From an uncultured Candidatus Hydrogenedens sp. (GTDB lineage Bacteria > Desulfobacterota_D > UBA1144), in the NCBI GenBank assembly GCA_902609885.1, contig CACLTT010000005.1:79476-119502 (forward strand): a DNA stretch of 40,027 nucleotides. Direction: 5' to 3'. How positions within the stretch are numbered: position 1 is the stretch's first letter; each line of letters starts with the position of its first letter. Positions 4,195-33,501 of the stretch are shown in pieces. Both the position numbers and the translations under genes were made by a program. Below the pieces are notes generated by a model. That model was given only the letters and a program-made list of their open reading frames with translations. It was not told the DNA's origin and searched no databases.

Positions 4195-4635
4195 TCAATT
4201 AATAAAGTTATTTAGTTCATTATTGAAAATTTCAACAAAATTATTATTAATTTGTAATAGTTCTAATTCGTTAGTTTTATTGCAAAATAGAACTATATTA
4301 ATTATTTCTGTATTTAAATAATTTTTGAAATCATCTATTTCGTTCTTATTTTTGATAGATATCAGATGCGATAAGTTCTCAATTTCAATTTTCTCTTTTA
4401 AAAAAGTAATCTTAATTTCTAGAGTTGGAAATTCGCCTTGCATTACAGAGTTAAAATTTACACGCAGAACAAAATCATCTGATTTTATAAATTCTATAGT
4501 TTGCAAAAAATTCTTTTTGAAAATTAAAAAATTTTTATTTTCAATAGATAATATTTTTGAGCCTTCTTTTATAAATTCAAAAGATTTAATGACTTTTTCT
4601 CTATCGATTAATAAACTTGATTTTTTTCCTATCAT
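4195..4635 (-). CDS. Unknown protein, 146 residues
   Basis: I do not recognise this protein. It has no signal peptide or membrane segment and is rich in Lys, Glu, Asn and Ile. The middle (about residues 50-85) alternates hydrophobic and charged residues as beta strands would, and the C-terminal third looks helical with many Asn. It is on the same strand as fabH and ends about 50 bases before the fabH start, so the two may be co-transcribed. I prefer this strand because the opposite-strand frame over 4325-4666 gives a Cys/Ser/Phe-rich translation typical of a shadow. The start ATG has no clear Shine-Dalgarno sequence. Confidence 0.55.
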   Translation of the reverse strand: MIGKKSSLLIDREKVIKSFEFIKEGSKILSIENKNFLIFKKNFLQTIEFIKSDDFVLRVNFNSVMQGEFPTLEIKITFLKEKIEIENLSHLISIKNKNEIDDFKNYLNTEIINIVLFCNKTNELELLQINNNFVEIFNNELNNFIN

Positions 4636-4685: not shown

Positions 4686-4895
4686 ATGACAGCTATAGCT
4701 ATTACTCTAGGAATGGTTGCTTTGTTTTGGATGGCTGCTACAAATATTGGTGCAGATACTGGCTCTGAAACAGCTGAAGCGGCTCCAACAAGTGGTGAAA
4801 CTCAAAGACCTGCAGAAGAATCGTTAACAGATGGTACTCCACCATCTTCAAGCGGATCTACTGATCAATCAGAGTTTAAATCTGCAAAAGGTTAG
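4686..4895 (+). CDS. Small single-pass membrane protein with acidic Ser/Thr/Pro tail
   Basis: A 69-residue protein of unrecognised family. Residues 1-22 (MTAIAITLGMVALFWMAATN and on) form one hydrophobic segment without preceding positive charges. The remaining 45 residues are low-complexity, rich in Ser, Thr, Pro, Gly, Glu and Ala, with almost no Lys or Asn, unlike most other proteins in this AT-rich window. The perfect ribosome site and separate location suggest good expression. The lack of basic residues before the segment and the acidic tail would suit an N-in or tail-out anchor, but topology is a guess. It is monocistronic and ends 8 bases from the convergent BtuF-like gene. Confidence 0.75.
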   Translation: MTAIAITLGMVALFWMAATNIGADTGSETAEAAPTSGETQRPAEESLTDGTPPSSSGSTDQSEFKSAKG

Positions 4896-4903
4896 GCTCC
4901 TAT

Positions 4904-5836
4904 TTATCCTGCAAAAGATTCAAAATGAATGAAATTTTGCAAGTTTATTATTGAGTCTGGTTTAGGTTCGTATTGATAATTCAAGGGATTTATTGTCCTG
5001 GCAATTATTTTTATTCCCTCGATTACTCTTGGCCCTGGCCTTGTATAATATGAATCAGCATCTACTATGTAAACATTTCCTGAATTAAAGGCTGGTATCT
5101 TGTTTAAATCTTTATTGCTTAATAGGTTATCAATTTCATTTAAAGTTTTCTCGACGCTATATCCACAAGGCATTACAAAGATGTAGTTGGGAGAATAGTC
5201 AATAATTTTATTAAAATTTAATTTTTTAGATTTTTCTCCACCTTTTCCATACAACTCTTTGCCTCCTGCAATATTGATCATATCAGGTACCCAGTGGCCA
5301 GCAATATAAATTGGATCAATCCATTCCATAGCAAAAACTCTAGGTCTATCTATTATGTTTTTTGTTTTCGAAGCAATCTCATTAATTTCAAATAGAAATT
5401 TTTTTTTAATTTCTAAACCTTTTTCTTTAACGCCTAATTTATCTGAGATGTTAAGGATAGATTCAGGTATGTCGTCTAACGTTAATGGAGAGTAGTCGAC
5501 AATTTTATTATCAACATTTATCTTTTTAATGTCGCTCTTTGAAGCTGCACATACTGCACAAGTTTCTTGGGATATTATGAAATCAGGATTTAGCTCCTCA
5601 ATTAGATCTTCATCTATTATATAAGGCGATATACCTTGATTAATTAGATTTGATATAGCATTATCAATTTCTAAATTAGTTTTATCTTCTAAATCCAATC
5701 TAATTCTAGAAATAATTTTCTTATCTTTTACAATGTCCGGATAATTACATTCTTCCGATACACCAATAATATTATCAGCCAAACCTAAATCACAAAGTAT
5801 TTCAGTTGCAGCTGGTAATAAAGATATAATTTTCAC
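4904..5836 (-). CDS. BtuF-like cobalamin-binding protein without signal peptide
   Basis: Belongs to the BtuF/FepB-type periplasmic-binding-protein fold: it starts with SLLPAATEILCDLGLADN and contains GVSEECNYPD, both typical of cobalamin-binding BtuF relatives, plus the later FNKIIDYSPNYIFVMPCG region. Length is 310 residues. The start is GTG, four codons after an in-frame stop, so no signal peptide can be added. That fits the cytoplasmic subgroup of this family rather than a classical ABC-transporter binding protein. A Cys-rich ETCAVCAAS segment lies near residue 112. It follows btuB by 18 bases in the same direction and is presumably under the same cobalamin riboswitch. No BtuC or BtuD is present in the window. 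Confidence 0.8.
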   Translation of the reverse strand: MKIISLLPAATEILCDLGLADNIIGVSEECNYPDIVKDKKIISRIRLDLEDKTNLEIDNAISNLINQGISPYIIDEDLIEELNPDFIISQETCAVCAASKSDIKKINVDNKIVDYSPLTLDDIPESILNISDKLGVKEKGLEIKKKFLFEINEIASKTKNIIDRPRVFAMEWIDPIYIAGHWVPDMINIAGGKELYGKGGEKSKKLNFNKIIDYSPNYIFVMPCGYSVEKTLNEIDNLLSNKDLNKIPAFNSGNVYIVDADSYYTRPGPRVIEGIKIIARTINPLNYQYEPKPDSIINLQNFIHFESFAG

Positions 5837-5854: not shown

Positions 5855-7816
5855 TTAATTAGATGTGTCATATCTAAAACCGACCATAACTGTTCTTCCT
5901 GGTGAAGTGAAGTTTAAGATTTCTTCTTTTTTATCATTAAACATATTTGAAATAGTTAAAAAAATCTTACTTTTATAACCATTGCTATTATTAAATGTAT
6001 AATCACTGTATAATCCAAAATCCCAATAAGAATCATTATAAAGACGTGTAGTGCTATTTTCATAGTCCCATCTACCGCCAGTATATGTCGTATCTATTGA
6101 AACAAAATAGTTTTCATAAGTTTTGCTTAATATCAGGCCACCGCTGGTTTTTGGCCTTCTTAAAAGAGCTTCATCGTTTTGCCAATTAGCATAATTATAT
6201 GAATTTTGCTGAACAGTATTATTTGCATTTACAGCTTTAGTTTCTAAATAAGTAAAGAAATATCTTAAAGATAATTCGTTTTGTAGTTTAAGCAGACCAG
6301 ATAGCTCTAAGCCTTGATATTTTGCTTCATCAAGATTTCTATAACTTGGACTTCCTGAACTTCTATAAGCTATCATATTATCAGATTTGCTTTTAAATAA
6401 TGTTAAAGATAATGAATGTATATTGTTTTGATAATCAATTCCTATCTCATAAGATTCATTTTCCTCTGGTTTAAGACTTATTGCAGAGTAAGTCTCATAT
6501 ATACCAGGATATTTAATCCCTTGGCTGTAGCCACCCCTTATTTTTATTTGGGGGTTTATAAATTTTGATATGAACAAAGTAGGACTATAAGTTGAGCCAT
6601 GATATTCATGGTCATCTTTTCTTAAAGCAAAATCTGTAACTATTGATTCATAAAAATTAATTGAAAACATTCCATAAAAAGATTCAATATATGTATTGTG
6701 GCCATAATCCGTAGCATAAGAACTTGCATTTGTATGATAATTGCTTCTCTCATCCATATATTCAAAACCAAGTTTTGAATTCAAAGTAATACCAGAATTA
6801 ACATAATTATTTAGTTTGTAATAGTAGTTATATTTTTTCTTTTTTTCCCACCAATCTATATTATTACTTCCTGAATCTCGCGTAGCACGTTTATTAAAAA
6901 AGTAAGAATAGTCAAAACCAATTTGAGAGTAGTCATAAATCTCATAAGTTGTACTAACACCTCGTGAATTTAGATGTCTAAAGTCTCTTTGGGTTCCGGA
7001 TGTGGAACTGTAACTGCCCACCCCACCCGAGTTATTAGTGGGATATCTAACCGTTGCCCATGAATCGAATAGACTTGATTTTATTTTTAGCTTATTTTCC
7101 AGAGCAGTTATATTTAATTTTGCATTAAGTGATTTATTGTTAAATGAATCATTGAAAATTCTAAAACCGTCATCATCAACCCTTTGAAACGCAATAGAGT
7201 AGTCAAGTCTAACATCATTAGAATTTTTGTTTAAAGGCCCGCTAATTGATAGGGATTCTTCATTAACAAAAAATGTACCACCATCAGTCTGCCCAATGGT
7301 ATCTTTACCAAAAGATTGATTAAAGCCCATACTTGCCATTAATGAAATTTGTGTCTCATTTGTTGGATTTTTAGTATTAATTATAATTACAGATCCTAGT
7401 GCCTCTGATCCAAAGAATCCCGCCATGGGTCCTCTGAGCACTTCAATTGATTCAATATTATTTATAGGTATGTATTCATAATTGAATGATCCACCAACAT
7501 CATTCATTTTTATTCCATCTATTATAACAAGATTATGATCGGACTCTTGACCTCTAGCGAAAACACTAATCAAGCCTCCTCTGCTTCCACTTTGCTTTAC
7601 AGATAGCCCAGGAACTAATTTTAACAAGTCGCCAATGCTTTGCGCTCCAGATGTTTTAATTTCATCTTCAGTAATAACTGTTGTAGAACCGCCAAATTTC
7701 TTTGTTTCTATAGTTGTATCACCGATTTTATTTGGCTCTTTTAGTGTTATATCATCAGCAATACTTGAATTGATTGAAATTATTATTAAAAAAAAGATTT
7801 TAACAAAATAGTTCAT
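5855..7816 (-). CDS. btuB: TonB-dependent outer-membrane cobalamin receptor
   Basis: Outer-membrane receptor of 653 residues. Residues 1-20 are a signal peptide (Lys6, hydrophobic core, cleavage after SSIA). The plug domain follows, with TSGAQSIGDLLKLVPGLSV and the SIEVLRGPMAGFFGSEALGSVI stretch. The rest is a beta-barrel full of Tyr/Ser/Asn strands. The assignment to vitamin B12 rests on the cobalamin riboswitch directly upstream and the BtuF-like gene downstream. The final strand ends GFRYDTSN rather than with an aromatic residue. The ribosome site GGAGG (7823-7827) is six bases before the ATG, so riboswitch control of translation is possible. Confidence 0.9.
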   Translation of the reverse strand: MNYFVKIFFLIIISINSSIADDITLKEPNKIGDTTIETKKFGGSTTVITEDEIKTSGAQSIGDLLKLVPGLSVKQSGSRGGLISVFARGQESDHNLVIIDGIKMNDVGGSFNYEYIPINNIESIEVLRGPMAGFFGSEALGSVIIINTKNPTNETQISLMASMGFNQSFGKDTIGQTDGGTFFVNEESLSISGPLNKNSNDVRLDYSIAFQRVDDDGFRIFNDSFNNKSLNAKLNITALENKLKIKSSLFDSWATVRYPTNNSGGVGSYSSTSGTQRDFRHLNSRGVSTTYEIYDYSQIGFDYSYFFNKRATRDSGSNNIDWWEKKKKYNYYYKLNNYVNSGITLNSKLGFEYMDERSNYHTNASSYATDYGHNTYIESFYGMFSINFYESIVTDFALRKDDHEYHGSTYSPTLFISKFINPQIKIRGGYSQGIKYPGIYETYSAISLKPEENESYEIGIDYQNNIHSLSLTLFKSKSDNMIAYRSSGSPSYRNLDEAKYQGLELSGLLKLQNELSLRYFFTYLETKAVNANNTVQQNSYNYANWQNDEALLRRPKTSGGLILSKTYENYFVSIDTTYTGGRWDYENSTTRLYNDSYWDFGLYSDYTFNNSNGYKSKIFLTISNMFNDKKEEILNFTSPGRTVMVGFRYDTSN

Positions 7817-7908
7817 AGTAACCCTCCAAGCTACTTCGAACGATTAAAAATAAACACCTTTGAAATTCTAAAAGCATCTTTCCTTTAACCACGAAGAAAA
7901 ACATTTAA

Positions 7909-8059
7909 CATTGATGGCAGGTCTTCTGACTTTAGGCCTTGCAAGCGCCTTCCCGTAAAAAACAGTGGCAAATGCTTACAAGATTTAAATGCCTATTACA
8001 GCAGCGGGTCTGTGTCGGACTTTCACCGAACTTCCCTATTAAACTCTCGCGAGTACCAT
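7909..8059 (-). ncRNA. Cobalamin (B12, AdoCbl-type) riboswitch
   Basis: Read on the minus strand, the conserved elements occur in the expected order: TAGGGAAG then GGTGAAAGTCCG (about 8013-8038), GACCCGCTGCTGTAA (about 7996-8010), GCCACTG (about 7963-7969), ACGGGAAGGC (about 7946-7955) and the B12 box AGTCAGAAGACCTGCC (7916-7931). The core is complete. The distance from the B12 box to the btuB ATG is about 100 bases. I see no strong intrinsic terminator in it, which leans toward control of ribosome access at GGAGG, but this is not decided by sequence reading. Confidence 0.95.
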
Positions 8060-8065
8060 GTACCA

Positions 8066-8094
8066 ATTATCAATGTAAAATAAAATTATGTCAA
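8066..8094 (-). promoter_or_regulatory. Sigma-70 promoter of the btuB riboswitch transcript
   Basis: On the minus strand, TTGACA (8089-8094) is followed by a 17-base spacer and GATAAT (8066-8071). The -35 is perfect and the -10 is five of six. The predicted start near 8059 is just upstream of the aptamer. The -35 lies inside the first codons of cofD. Confidence 0.8.
8076..8081 (+). promoter_or_regulatory. -10 element of the cof operon
   Basis: TAAAAT sits exactly six bases before the cofD ATG, inside the spacer of the opposite btuB promoter. There is no Shine-Dalgarno site, so the cofD mRNA is probably leaderless. A -35 is not obvious. Confidence 0.55.
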
Positions 8095-9017
8095 ACAAAA
8101 GAAAAAATATTACAACTTTTGGTGGTGGAGTGGGCGCGGGTAAATTCTTGCGTGGTCTTTATAATTTTAGATCAGAGTATATTTTAAAATTCGTTGTTAA
8201 TACTTCTGATGACATTGATATTTATGATGTGAGAGTAAGCCCTGACGTTGACTCGGTTTTATATTGGATATCTGGAACTGTTAATAGAGAAAGAGGATGG
8301 GGAATTAAAGAAGATACATTTAAAATGGTAAGAAGCGATAAATCAAACTGGTTTAATTTAGGTGATCGAGACTTTGAATATAATAAAAGAAAAAAAGCAC
8401 AGTTAGATTCAGGTATTACTCTAAGTGAAACTATAAACATTAAAAAAGATGAACTTAAAATTAATAATGTTGATATTTTTCCAATGACAAATGATAAAGT
8501 TGAAACATATCTTGAAACAGATGCGGGATTATTACACATTCAAGAATATTTAATTAAACATAAGATGAGTCCAGGAATTAAGGATATTAAATTTGTTGAT
8601 GTAGAAAATGCAAAGCTTTATGAGCCTATTAAAGATGCTGTTTTCTCAAGTGACCTTATAATTTTTTGCCCTAGTAATCCTTTAATTAGTGTTGAGCCAA
8701 TATTGCAATTAAAAGAATTACAATCAATCATTAATACCTCAAATGCAAAAAAGGTTGCAATTTCACCCATTGTAAATGGTTTAGCTTTTCAAGGTCCAAT
8801 TTTGAATTTATTAAAATTGAAAAATCTTGATTGTTCAGTAATTGGTATTGCAGAATATTATAAAGATTTTGTTGATTATTTAGTTATTGATAATAGTGAC
8901 AGATTTTATGAAGATAAAATAAATAAAATGGGACTTAAAACATTGATACAAGAAATCAAAATGAAAGATGATAATGTCTCAACGGAGCTTGCATCAAGTA
9001 TCATTAAAATTTTATAA
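8088..9017 (+). CDS. cofD: 2-phospho-L-lactate transferase (F420 biosynthesis)
   Basis: CofD joins the activated phospholactate (or a related three-carbon acid) to the deazaflavin FO, giving F420-0. Recognised by TTFGGGVGAGKFLRGL near the N-terminus, VVNTSDDIDIYDVRVSPDVDS and GWGIKEDTF, which are hallmark CofD segments. Length 309 is normal. First gene of a four-gene operon cofD-cofE-cofG-cofH; cofE starts 6 bases after it. The partner guanylyltransferase CofC is not in the window. The ATG at 8088 is supported by alignment of the N-terminal motif and by the -10 box; no upstream extension is needed. Confidence 0.93.
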   Translation: MSNKRKNITTFGGGVGAGKFLRGLYNFRSEYILKFVVNTSDDIDIYDVRVSPDVDSVLYWISGTVNRERGWGIKEDTFKMVRSDKSNWFNLGDRDFEYNKRKKAQLDSGITLSETINIKKDELKINNVDIFPMTNDKVETYLETDAGLLHIQEYLIKHKMSPGIKDIKFVDVENAKLYEPIKDAVFSSDLIIFCPSNPLISVEPILQLKELQSIINTSNAKKVAISPIVNGLAFQGPILNLLKLKNLDCSVIGIAEYYKDFVDYLVIDNSDRFYEDKINKMGLKTLIQEIKMKDDNVSTELASSIIKIL

Positions 9018-9023
9018 TAAACT

Positions 9024-9770
9024 ATGAAAAGTATAGAAATAATTCCTATAAATAATTTTCCAATCATTAATAAAGGCGACTCTATATCTGAATCTATAGC
9101 TAATGTAATTAAACGAAATAAATTATCTTTAAAAAAAAATGATATTTTAGTCATAGCACATAAAATAATTTCAATTTCTGAAGGAAGAATTGTGAAGTTG
9201 TCAGATATTAAAATATCTCAAAAGATTAAGGAAGTATCGAAAAAAATAAAAAAATCTCCTGAGATAACTCAACTTATATTTAATGAGTCAGAAAAAATTA
9301 TAAAAATTAATAAAAATTTTATAATTACAAAAGACAAAAATGGCATCATAGCGGCAAATGCTGGAGTAGACCAATCAAATTTGAAAAATAAGGATTACGC
9401 ACTACTCCTACCTAAAAACCCAAATAAATCAGCAAAAAGAATTTCTTTAGAGATTGAAAAGAGATTTGGAAAATCTATTCCTGTAATAATTTCTGACAGC
9501 GTAGGACGACCATGGAGAAACGGCTTAACACAAATAGCTATAGGTAGTTATGGAATAAAATCAATAATTAAATATAATAAAGATCTCTATAACAACAGGC
9601 TTTATGATACAGATGTACCATTAGTAGATGAAATATCTTCTGCAGCTGGTTTATTAATGATTAAGGATGCGGGTATTCCAGTAGTAATTATTAGGGGGTA
9701 TAATTATATACCAATTAAAGAGGGGTTAAAAAACATAGTTAGATCGGAAAAAAATGATGTCTTTATTTAA
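9024..9770 (+). CDS. cofE: Coenzyme F420-0:L-glutamate ligase
   Basis: CofE adds L-glutamate residues to F420-0 using GTP. The 248-residue single-domain form is seen, as in archaea, without the nitroreductase-like C-terminal domain of actinobacterial FbiB. Key segments are IEIIPINNFPIINKGDS at the start, LVIAHKIISISEGR near residue 48 and VIISDSVGRPWRNGLTQIAIG near residue 155. It overlaps cofG by 17 bases, consistent with coupled translation. The number of glutamates added cannot be told from the sequence. Confidence 0.93.
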   Translation: MKSIEIIPINNFPIINKGDSISESIANVIKRNKLSLKKNDILVIAHKIISISEGRIVKLSDIKISQKIKEVSKKIKKSPEITQLIFNESEKIIKINKNFIITKDKNGIIAANAGVDQSNLKNKDYALLLPKNPNKSAKRISLEIEKRFGKSIPVIISDSVGRPWRNGLTQIAIGSYGIKSIIKYNKDLYNNRLYDTDVPLVDEISSAAGLLMIKDAGIPVVIIRGYNYIPIKEGLKNIVRSEKNDVFI

Positions 9771-11013
9771 TATTTATAATAATTTTAAAAAAGAAAAGAA
9801 TATAAAAAGTCTTTTTGATTCGCATTCAATCCCTATTAGGGATTATGATCTTATTGATAAAAAATACATTGAAATTTTAGAAGAATACTTAAATACCCAA
9901 AATTTAAGTAGAGATAAATTAATGGTATTAACAAAAATGCCGATAGAAGAGGTATCACTTCTGATGGCTGTCGCAAATGATACAAGAGAGAATTCTAAAG
10001 GAAATTTAATAAGTTTTTCGAAAAATGTATTTATACCTCTAACGCAATTATGCAGAGATCAATGTTCATACTGTACTTTTAAAATTGAACCGGGCGAAGG
10101 CCCATTGCTTGTTACTCCTGAAGAGGTCTTAAAATCTACCAAAAAAGCAGTAGAATTAGGTTGCACTGAACTCTTATTTGTATCGGGAGATAAACCTGAA
10201 AAAAATTATGATATTTATAAAGAAAAATTGAAATCAATGGGTTATACATCAACTGCTGATTATATGATTTCTATGAGTGAAATATGTCTAGAGGAAAATA
10301 TTTTTCCTCATTCAAATCTTGGTATTGCCAACCAATCTGAACTTATAAGATTTAAAAACTCTAATCCTAGCATGGGCCTTATGCTTGAAAGTATAAGTGA
10401 GAGGTTGATGGATCCAGGTATGGCTCATTTTCGATGCCCTGATAAATATCCAAAAGCCAGAATAAAGACAATTTCGTTGGCAGGAGAACTTAATATTCCT
10501 TGGACCTCGGGTATTTTGATTGGTATTGGTGAAAATTGGGATGAGAGAATTGACTCAATATTAGAATTAAATAGAATAAATAATCTCTATGGACATATTC
10601 AAGAAATAATTATTCAAAATTTTAATCCTAAACCAGGAATTAAAATGGAAGGCCATCCAGCGCCTACTGACCTGGATATGATAAAAACAGTTTCATTATC
10701 AAGATTAATAATGTCGAATTCTGTTAATATTCAGGTTCCACCTAATTTAAATTCTAAAACATATATGCTCCATGTTTTTTCTGGTGTTAATGATTTAGGA
10801 GGTGTATCTCCGATAACTATCGATTATGTAAACCCTGAATCTCCTTGGCCTCAAATTGATCTGATGAAAAATACAATTTCTGAATTTGGTTTTCATTTGC
10901 GCGAGAGATTGCCAGTATATCCTGAATACTTATCTAGTGATTACATTGAGGATCATATTCTTGGGAGGGCAAAAAAGTTTATAGATAAAACAGGCTTTGT
11001 TGCGGATAACTAA
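9754..11013 (+). CDS. cofG: FO synthase subunit 1, radical SAM (7,8-didemethyl-8-hydroxy-5-deazariboflavin synthase)
   Basis: Radical SAM enzyme that, with CofH, builds the deazaflavin chromophore FO. The 4Fe-4S site is Cys100, Cys104, Cys107 in CRDQCSYCTF. Later segments VSGDKPE and ILIGIGENWDER are typical of CofG. At 419 residues it is longer than archaeal CofG (about 330-360), with an N-terminal stretch of about 90 residues that resembles the helical pre-domain found in the CofG half of fused bacterial FbiC. Two adjacent ATGs (9754 and 9757) are possible starts; both lie within the end of cofE. Confidence 0.93.
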   Translation: MMSLFNIYNNFKKEKNIKSLFDSHSIPIRDYDLIDKKYIEILEEYLNTQNLSRDKLMVLTKMPIEEVSLLMAVANDTRENSKGNLISFSKNVFIPLTQLCRDQCSYCTFKIEPGEGPLLVTPEEVLKSTKKAVELGCTELLFVSGDKPEKNYDIYKEKLKSMGYTSTADYMISMSEICLEENIFPHSNLGIANQSELIRFKNSNPSMGLMLESISERLMDPGMAHFRCPDKYPKARIKTISLAGELNIPWTSGILIGIGENWDERIDSILELNRINNLYGHIQEIIIQNFNPKPGIKMEGHPAPTDLDMIKTVSLSRLIMSNSVNIQVPPNLNSKTYMLHVFSGVNDLGGVSPITIDYVNPESPWPQIDLMKNTISEFGFHLRERLPVYPEYLSSDYIEDHILGRAKKFIDKTGFVADN

Positions 11014-11017
11014 AACA

Positions 11018-12205
11018 ATGGATAAAGAGTTAAAAAAAATTATCAACACAATTGAAAATAATAGGGCTAAAGGTTTTGAAATAACCTTGTCCAAATCTTC
11101 TTCAGATATTTCAAAAATTATTGAAAAACCTTTTAATAACAAAGAAATCACCGAACAAGAAGCTGAAAAGCTTTTTTTAATTGATAATTCTTTCGATCTT
11201 TCATCGCTTGTTATCGCTGCAGATCTTGCAAGAAAAGAAGATATTGGAGACGATGTTACATTTGTAGTGAATCGAAATATCAATTTTACAAATATATGTA
11301 ATACATATTGTGGCTTTTGTAATTTTATGGCTGCTGAGGGAGACGAAAGAGCATACTTTCTTACAATGGATGAAATAAAAGAAAAAGTTCATGAGGCAAA
11401 AGATAACGGCGCTACAGAAGTTTGTATGCAGGGAGGTATGCATCCTGATATAGATGGAAACTTTTACGTAGAAATTATTAAAAGTGTCAAAGAGGCTGTC
11501 CCCGAGATGCACACACATTGTTTTTCTCCTTTTGAAGTTCACTATGGTGCTAGTACATTAAATATTCCTATTCGAGATTTTGTTTCAATGTTAAAAGATG
11601 TCGGTCATGGAACATTTCCTGGCACTGCTGCCGAGATACTTAGCGAGGATGTTAGAAAAATTATTGCACCAGGTAAAATTACAACTGATCAATGGGTAGA
11701 TACAATTAAAGAAATACATAAGGCAGGAATGAAAACAACATCTACTATTATGTATGGTCATGTTGATAAACCTTTCCACTGGGCCAGACACTTTGAAGTA
11801 ATACGTCAAATTCAAAAAGAGACAAATGGCATAACTGAGTTTGTACCACTAAGATTTATTCCTTGGGATACAAGATTATTTAAAAAAGGCATATCTCGTG
11901 AAGGGCCCACAGATTTAGATCAATTAAAAATGTATGCAGTTTCTAGACTATTTTTTCGTGGAATAATAAATAACATCCAAGTTTCTTGGGTAAAACAAGG
12001 TCCAGAATTTGCTCAATATTGTCTGACAGCAGGTGCCAATGATTTTGGCGGAACTTTGATGGAAGAAAAAATTACAACTGCCGCTGGGGGAAAGTATGGG
12101 CAATATTTTCCGCCTGAAGAATTCAGAAGGCTTACCTTAGAAATTAATAGACGCCCTGTCGAAAGATCAACTTCATATGAATATTTAAAAGTATTTGAAA
12201 ATTAA
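11018..12205 (+). CDS. cofH: FO synthase subunit 2, radical SAM (5-amino-6-(D-ribitylamino)uracil--L-tyrosine transferase)
   Basis: The second half of FO synthase: attaches the tyrosine-derived hydroxybenzyl unit to 5-amino-6-ribitylaminouracil. The 4Fe-4S site is Cys94, Cys98, Cys101 in CNTYCGFCNF, followed by GATEVCMQGGMHPD, GTFPGTAAEIL and STIMYGH, all typical of CofH/FbiC C-terminal half. The ATG at 11018, four bases after the cofG stop, gives a normal 395-residue protein; an in-frame TTG at 10997 would overlap cofG but is not needed. CofG and CofH are separate here, as in archaea and cyanobacteria, not fused as in actinobacteria. Confidence 0.93.
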   Translation: MDKELKKIINTIENNRAKGFEITLSKSSSDISKIIEKPFNNKEITEQEAEKLFLIDNSFDLSSLVIAADLARKEDIGDDVTFVVNRNINFTNICNTYCGFCNFMAAEGDERAYFLTMDEIKEKVHEAKDNGATEVCMQGGMHPDIDGNFYVEIIKSVKEAVPEMHTHCFSPFEVHYGASTLNIPIRDFVSMLKDVGHGTFPGTAAEILSEDVRKIIAPGKITTDQWVDTIKEIHKAGMKTTSTIMYGHVDKPFHWARHFEVIRQIQKETNGITEFVPLRFIPWDTRLFKKGISREGPTDLDQLKMYAVSRLFFRGIINNIQVSWVKQGPEFAQYCLTAGANDFGGTLMEEKITTAAGGKYGQYFPPEEFRRLTLEINRRPVERSTSYEYLKVFEN

Positions 12206-32448: not shown

Positions 32449-33501
32449 ATGAACAAAATCAAATTTGGACTTGTACCACCAATGCCTGGTGCCGATTGTG
32501 ATGAACTTATAAATTTCTCCATTAAAGCTGATAAATTAAAATTTGATTCATTATGGTTTCCAGACCATTTAGCTTTTATTGCTCCAAGCCCAGCTTTCGA
32601 AGCATGGACTATAGCTGCGGCAGTTGCAAAAGTTACAGAAAATATCACCATTGGAACAACATCTGATCCTCATAGAAATCATCCTGCAGTCTTCGCACAG
32701 AGGCTTGCTACTGTAGACCATATATCTAAGGGAAGAGTGGCTTTAGGTCTGGGGGTTGGGGAATCAATGAATACAGATGCTTATGGTATTCCCTGGGATA
32801 ATCCTTTTCAAAGGATGACAGAGTCAATGGATGTTATGAAGCTTTTATGGTCTACAAAGAATTCGATTAATTATGATGGAGATTTTTTTAAATTAAAAGA
32901 CGCATCACTACTTCTTAATCTATATAAAGACAAGAAGACTTTACCTTTTTATTTTGCTACCCATACAGATAAAGGTCTCGATTTAATTGGTAGGGCTGGC
33001 GATGGTTGGATGCCACTTGATTTAACACCGAATCTATATAGAGAATACTTAAGTAAGATAGAGGTATCTGCAAAAAATTCAGGAAGAAATCTCAACCAAA
33101 TTGACACTACCATATGGATATTTACTTCATTGGGATCTAATGAGGATGAAGCATATAAATCTCTTGAGCCTTTTAGATATGTATGTATTATGCAAGAACA
33201 ATTAAAAAAAGCAGGTTATGATATAAATATTCCTGAAGAATATAAGGGATTAAATTATTTTAATATCACGCCTACAGATGAAGCAAGAAAAGAAAAATTT
33301 AGGGACCTGGGAAAATATTTTCCTCGTGAGGCAATCATAGACTTTACAATAACGGGTTCAAAAAAAGATTGTATTAAAAAAATTGAAAAATATATTGAAA
33401 AGGGTGTGAAACATTTTGTCTTGTTTCATTATTTCAGCCCTGATCCTGATTTAGCGATGAAAATTTATGCTAAAGAAATTATTCCATATTTTAATTCTTA
33501 A
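32449..33501 (+). CDS. LLM-class (luciferase-like) flavin or F420-dependent oxidoreductase
   Basis: A TIM-barrel protein of the bacterial luciferase-like family, 350 residues. It contains FDSLWFPDHL near the start, the SDPHRNHPAVFAQRLATVDH segment and GRVALGLGVGES, features shared with F420-dependent members such as Mer and Fgd. Because the window encodes FO synthase, CofD and CofE, F420 is a credible cofactor, but FMN is possible and the substrate is unknown. It follows the sigma factor by 4 bases and overlaps the convergent binding-protein gene by 11. Confidence 0.85.
   Translation: MNKIKFGLVPPMPGADCDELINFSIKADKLKFDSLWFPDHLAFIAPSPAFEAWTIAAAVAKVTENITIGTTSDPHRNHPAVFAQRLATVDHISKGRVALGLGVGESMNTDAYGIPWDNPFQRMTESMDVMKLLWSTKNSINYDGDFFKLKDASLLLNLYKDKKTLPFYFATHTDKGLDLIGRAGDGWMPLDLTPNLYREYLSKIEVSAKNSGRNLNQIDTTIWIFTSLGSNEDEAYKSLEPFRYVCIMQEQLKKAGYDINIPEEYKGLNYFNITPTDEARKEKFRDLGKYFPREAIIDFTITGSKKDCIKKIEKYIEKGVKHFVLFHYFSPDPDLAMKIYAKEIIPYFNS

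Follow-up and report, generated by a model that had tools for sequence, protein, structure and literature searches.

In the 40,027-nucleotide stretch of DNA analysed here (the window), two divergent promoters of the housekeeping type appear to overlap in the compact interval that separates the F420 genes cofDEGH from a B12-uptake operon comprising a riboswitch, a btuB-like gene and a binding protein. The overlap is real and tidy, ordinary in kind, and has a neat history. It is probably best regarded as a side effect of genome compaction, without cross-control of the two cofactor systems. The same seven bases serve as the start of a gene when read on one strand and as a -35 element when read on the opposite one, and the locus, in a marine bacterium with a small genome, is a clean, tree-placed example of how compaction brings coding and regulatory sequence to overlap. 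The features are listed in Table 1.

Table 1. Features of the btuB/cofD region, in window coordinates.
Feature	Position	Strand	Basis
Periplasmic binding protein, BtuF position in operon	4904..5836	-	PF01497
TonB-dependent receptor, BtuB-like	5855..7816	-	PF00593, PF07715; best NCBIfam match TonB-B12, E 1.6e-46, below cut-off
Expression platform: potential extended hairpin, then hairpin with btuB ribosome-binding site	7817..7898	-	Folding of the platform alone
Cobalamin riboswitch aptamer, RF00174	7899..8075	-	88.8 bits (curated threshold 31.5), full model 1-189/189
Predicted riboswitch mRNA start, just ahead of the first conserved GGU of the aptamer	8059 (about ±2)	-	Placed from the -10
btuB/riboswitch promoter -10, GATAAT	8066..8071	-	Sequence reading and scan; identical in 7/7 g1 and g3 genomes
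cofD -10, TAAAAT, ending 6 nt before ATG, inside btuB spacer	8076..8081	+	Distance to ATG; genome-wide peak
btuB/riboswitch promoter -35, TTGACA	8089..8094	-	Sequence reading and scan; identical in 7/7 g1 and g3 genomes
cofD, 2-phospho-L-lactate transferase	8088..9017	+	PF01933; TIGR01819 E 4.6e-70, score 236, just below equivalog cut-off of 257.45
cofE, F420-0:glutamate ligase	9024..9770	+	TIGR01916 above cut-off
cofG	9754..11013	+	TIGR03550 above cut-off
cofH	10997..12205	+	TIGR03551 above cut-off

Geometry of the overlapping promoters

The promoter assigned to the B12-uptake operon, with a spacer of 17 bases (8088-8072, minus strand) between its -35 and -10, lies near the sigma70 consensus, matching it at 11 of 12 positions in the promoter scan. 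It was the sole site with this score in 4 kb, the remaining 17 promoter-like sites scoring 9/12. In Markov sequence of the same composition, sites of at least 11/12 arose at ~0.046 per kb per strand, and the chance of one at either position 8 or 9 nt ahead of the aptamer was ~1e-4 against this background. Since the first positions of the RF00174 model overlap the promoter, the real riboswitch RNA probably starts near 8059.

On the opposite strand, the cofD promoter was assigned as -10-only, because no recognisable plus-strand -35 was found at 16-18 bp. The assignment is supported by a fixed distance of 6-7 nt between hexamer and ATG in all 14 family genomes, wherever the ATG stands; the hexamer scores 5/6 in 13 of them and 4/6 in G003. 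Across the genome, 26 of 206 divergent genes had a -10 hexamer of at least 5/6 ending precisely 6 nt ahead of the start, compared with a mean of 6.9 at other distances, and Shine-Dalgarno sequences preceded 4% of the genes with a -10 located 4-9 nt before the start versus 25% of the rest. The cofD gene combines a -10 ending 6-7 nt before its start with the lack of a Shine-Dalgarno sequence and, as its 6-nt gap coincides with the genome-wide peak, its mRNA is probably leaderless. The 688 kb sampled from one genome suggest that leaderless mRNAs are widespread in the marine lineage concerned. Leaderless genes with a -10 just before the open reading frame occur in other bacteria (PMC3160421; PMC12340547), and cofD resembles them in the 6-7-nt distance and the lack of a Shine-Dalgarno sequence; it differs in that its -10 overlaps an opposing promoter.

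The cofD ATG occupies 8088-8090, of which bases 8089-8090 are common to the opposing -35, and ATGTCAA at the beginning of the gene is the reverse complement of TTGACAT. In the preferred reading the -10s are separate and 4 bp apart, and we infer transcription starts ~29 bp apart that face away from each other. Because this distance is so short, simultaneous occupancy by two polymerases is probably excluded. The initial annotation had described a minus-strand promoter of TTGACA, a 17-base spacer and GATAAT, a complete riboswitch, an ATG sharing bases with the -35, and a cofD -10 within the btuB spacer; direct reading, the scan and the full-length RF00174 match bear out all of these elements.

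Conservation and origin of the register

Each of the 14 family genomes carries one riboswitch, divergent from cofD. Six relatives retrieved in a separate contig search, all with the riboswitch beside cofD, correspond contig for contig to six of the 14 and are not independent. Every family genome had a sigma70-like promoter (9-11 of 12) at the equivalent site of the btuB strand, and the distance from its -10 to the aptamer GGU was 8 nt (g1, g3, g5) or 9 nt (g2, g4) in all 14, a constancy that supports the assignment of the btuB -10.

The interlocked register itself was observed in 7/14 genomes, those of the sister genera g1 and g3, so that in the comparison of related genomes suggested in the initial annotation, the divergent arrangement stood throughout the family and the exact overlap in only half of it. 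In these seven genomes, cofD begins with ATGTCAA, six bases of which are covered by the TTGACA -35, and the btuB spacer measures 17 in g1 and 16 in g3. The window protein has a short N-terminal extension, MSNKRKN-ITT, compared with relatives that begin M-ITT. In the seven genomes of g2, g4 and g5, whose cofD begins with MITTF or MITTL, 22-34 bp separate the ATG from the -35 upstream of it; the cofD -10, TATTAT, falls within this interval and outside the btuB spacer. MIT likewise precedes the conserved GGG in each of the 16 outgroup cofD frames that were read. In the cofD tree, g1 and g3 form one clade (94/93). On the evidence of these sequences, the MIT..GGG start is ancestral and the interlock is younger than the btuB/cofD pairing. 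The MIT start in all others, together with the single clade, points to a single relocation of the cofD start into the btuB promoter, where it has remained. The tight register would have arisen in the common ancestor of g1 and g3 through an upstream shift of the start codon, after which the new cofD -10 would sit in the opposing spacer and ATGTCAA over the opposing -35. It was kept in 7/7 genomes of the clade while cofD identity to the window protein dropped to 51%, which could reflect selection for the combined elements, as opposed to selection on each promoter separately. Of note, the g5 genome (L009, G013) has, upstream of cofD, a TTGACAT -35 and TAAAAT 6 nt before an ATGTCAA that is out of frame, with the frame counted by hand; this arrangement looks like a forerunner of the interlock.

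The pairing of the two operons was compared with its surroundings using tblastn. The twelve relatives for which sufficient sequence was available all kept the order of a block of window proteins extending up to 17.3 kb, the sole exception to collinearity being a 69-residue open reading frame (4686-4895) for which g2 and g5 gave no match. The btuB/cofD junction is no better conserved than the neighbouring genes. Kept adjacency was rejected as a sign of function, since every gene of the 17-kb block is equally collinear. Outside the family, cofD was present in 43 genomes of the class; the riboswitch, where found in other families, was either on a different contig from cofD or, in eight genomes, at a distance of 54-83 kb on the cofD contig, as judged by comparing contigs by eye. 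No riboswitch was detected by cmscan within 1.5 kb of cofD at 16 outgroup loci. Elsewhere in the class, cofD and the riboswitch are not linked.

Frequency of tight divergent gaps

A census was taken over 688 kb of the ~985-kb genome, sampled as stretches containing 103 divergent pairs (206 genes), with genes called by a simple codon-score caller, so that some start codons are approximate. Gaps of ≤45 bp separated 23 of the 103 pairs and gaps of ≤75 bp separated 49, and nine pairs with starts ≤59 bp apart had leaderless-type -10s on both sides. Three pairs overlap even more tightly than btuB/cofD, with just 23-28 bp between start codons and a leaderless-type -10 in each case (G000:C5:101302-101325, C7:6938-6961 and C2:127483-127511). 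A -35 of at least 5/6 in the cofD register combined with a -10 of at least 5/6 at 17 was exclusive to btuB/cofD among the 206 divergent genes, so in the ~70% of the genome examined the strong-consensus version of the overlap is rare. ATGTCAA starts, which read TTGACAT on the other strand, were not enriched in divergent genes (3/206 versus 7/465). A looser census of -35s of at least 9/12 over opposite start codons returned 23 pairs and was discarded, as chance matches are frequent in DNA of 30% GC.

Regulatory interpretation

The initial annotation had proposed that polymerase cannot occupy both promoters at once, and that transcription for B12 uptake and for F420 synthesis would compete, leading to cross-control. 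Mutual exclusion fits the geometry and is probable, but cross-control of the two cofactor systems found no support. Speaking against cross-control are the collinearity, which accounts for the adjacency, the absence of the register from half of the family, the lack of linkage in other families of the class, the commonness of tight gaps, the logic of the riboswitch and data from E. coli. A riboswitch acts on RNA that is already being made, after initiation, and B12 should for this reason not alter polymerase occupancy of the btuB promoter or access to cofD. Control by B12 would act later, on the btuB RNA, with the F420 genes being constitutive or otherwise controlled. In E. coli, none of the five overlapping divergent promoters that were examined showed substantial competition at basal activity, which was too low for it, although activation in one direction was able to repress transcription in the opposite one (PMC12825309). 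Competition is thus possible if one direction is strongly activated, and a regulatory interlock, in which firing of the strong btuB promoter occludes cofD and sets the cofactor operons against each other, would also suit the geometry of the overlap, the retention of the register throughout the g1 and g3 clade, and a btuB promoter that is near consensus opposite a cofD promoter that is not. With B12 acting through the riboswitch and with the other points above against it, such an interlock is unlikely. Very unlikely is a variant in which selection holds the moved start codon, and occlusion by the B12-uptake promoter sets basal F420 synthesis in the g1 and g3 clade as a regulator-free link between cofactors. 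If the operons did compete, two cofactor systems would be linked without a regulator; the evidence points otherwise, and we infer that cross-regulation is absent. A literature search for cobalamin riboswitches together with F420 returned no paper covering both.

The locus resembles the bidirectional promoters of Warman et al. (PMC12825309) in having two predicted divergent mRNAs and overlapping sigma70 promoters that probably cannot be co-occupied. In the preferred reading it differs from them in its separate -10s and start spacing, the shared -10s of that type having starts mostly 10, 18 or 23 bp apart, and in its products, a riboswitch mRNA and a probably leaderless mRNA. A true shared -10 can also be read in the sequence: AATTAT (8065-8070, plus strand) shares bases with GATAAT (8071-8066, minus strand), which would place the starts ~18 bp apart, the most frequent distance in bidirectional promoters (PMC12825309), and give cofD an 11-nt leader. 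AATTATC is kept in 6/7 g1 and g3 genomes, with GATTATC in G004. The plus-strand hexamer, however, is a weak one of only 4/6, without the -12 T, and any good minus-strand -10 would give rise to its A and T. TAAAAT at 6 nt matches the genome-wide leaderless mode, and its counterpart is kept where the cofD start has another position. The shared -10, with the start spacing and leader that go with it, is accordingly quite unlikely, and separate -10s are the preferred reading.

The riboswitch and adjoining genes

The cobalamin riboswitch is present as a single copy in the 985-kb genome. As in known RF00174 riboswitches upstream of btuB, a complete aptamer is followed by a btuB-type receptor gene; nothing else sets it apart, and transcription seems to begin right at the aptamer's edge. 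When the platform was folded alone, a hairpin around the btuB ribosome-binding site (AGUARC..GGAG..GUUACU-AUG), which ends at the AUG, was predicted in the seven g1 and g3 genomes and suggests control at translation. The platform, 3' of the aptamer, also contains a conserved UUUUUCUUCGWGGUUAAAGG, and inspection by eye indicates that its GGUU/GGUC could pair with GACC in the GACCCGC loop of the aptamer.

The receptor scored 159.1 bits against the BtuB equivalog TIGR01779, below the cut-off of 599.7, and the label BtuB-like derives solely from the riboswitch, the best match and the adjoining binding protein. Beyond the latter, small open reading frames at 4195-4635 (minus strand) and 4686-4895 (plus strand) have no Pfam match; the former is kept in all family genomes and the latter in most. 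On the plus strand, cofD, cofE, cofG and cofH are followed by cysE, and a gene of the cofC family is located elsewhere in the genome. Four genes of the luciferase-like monooxygenase family (PF00296), one at 32449-33501 and three in other places of the genome, are candidates for F420-dependent enzymes.
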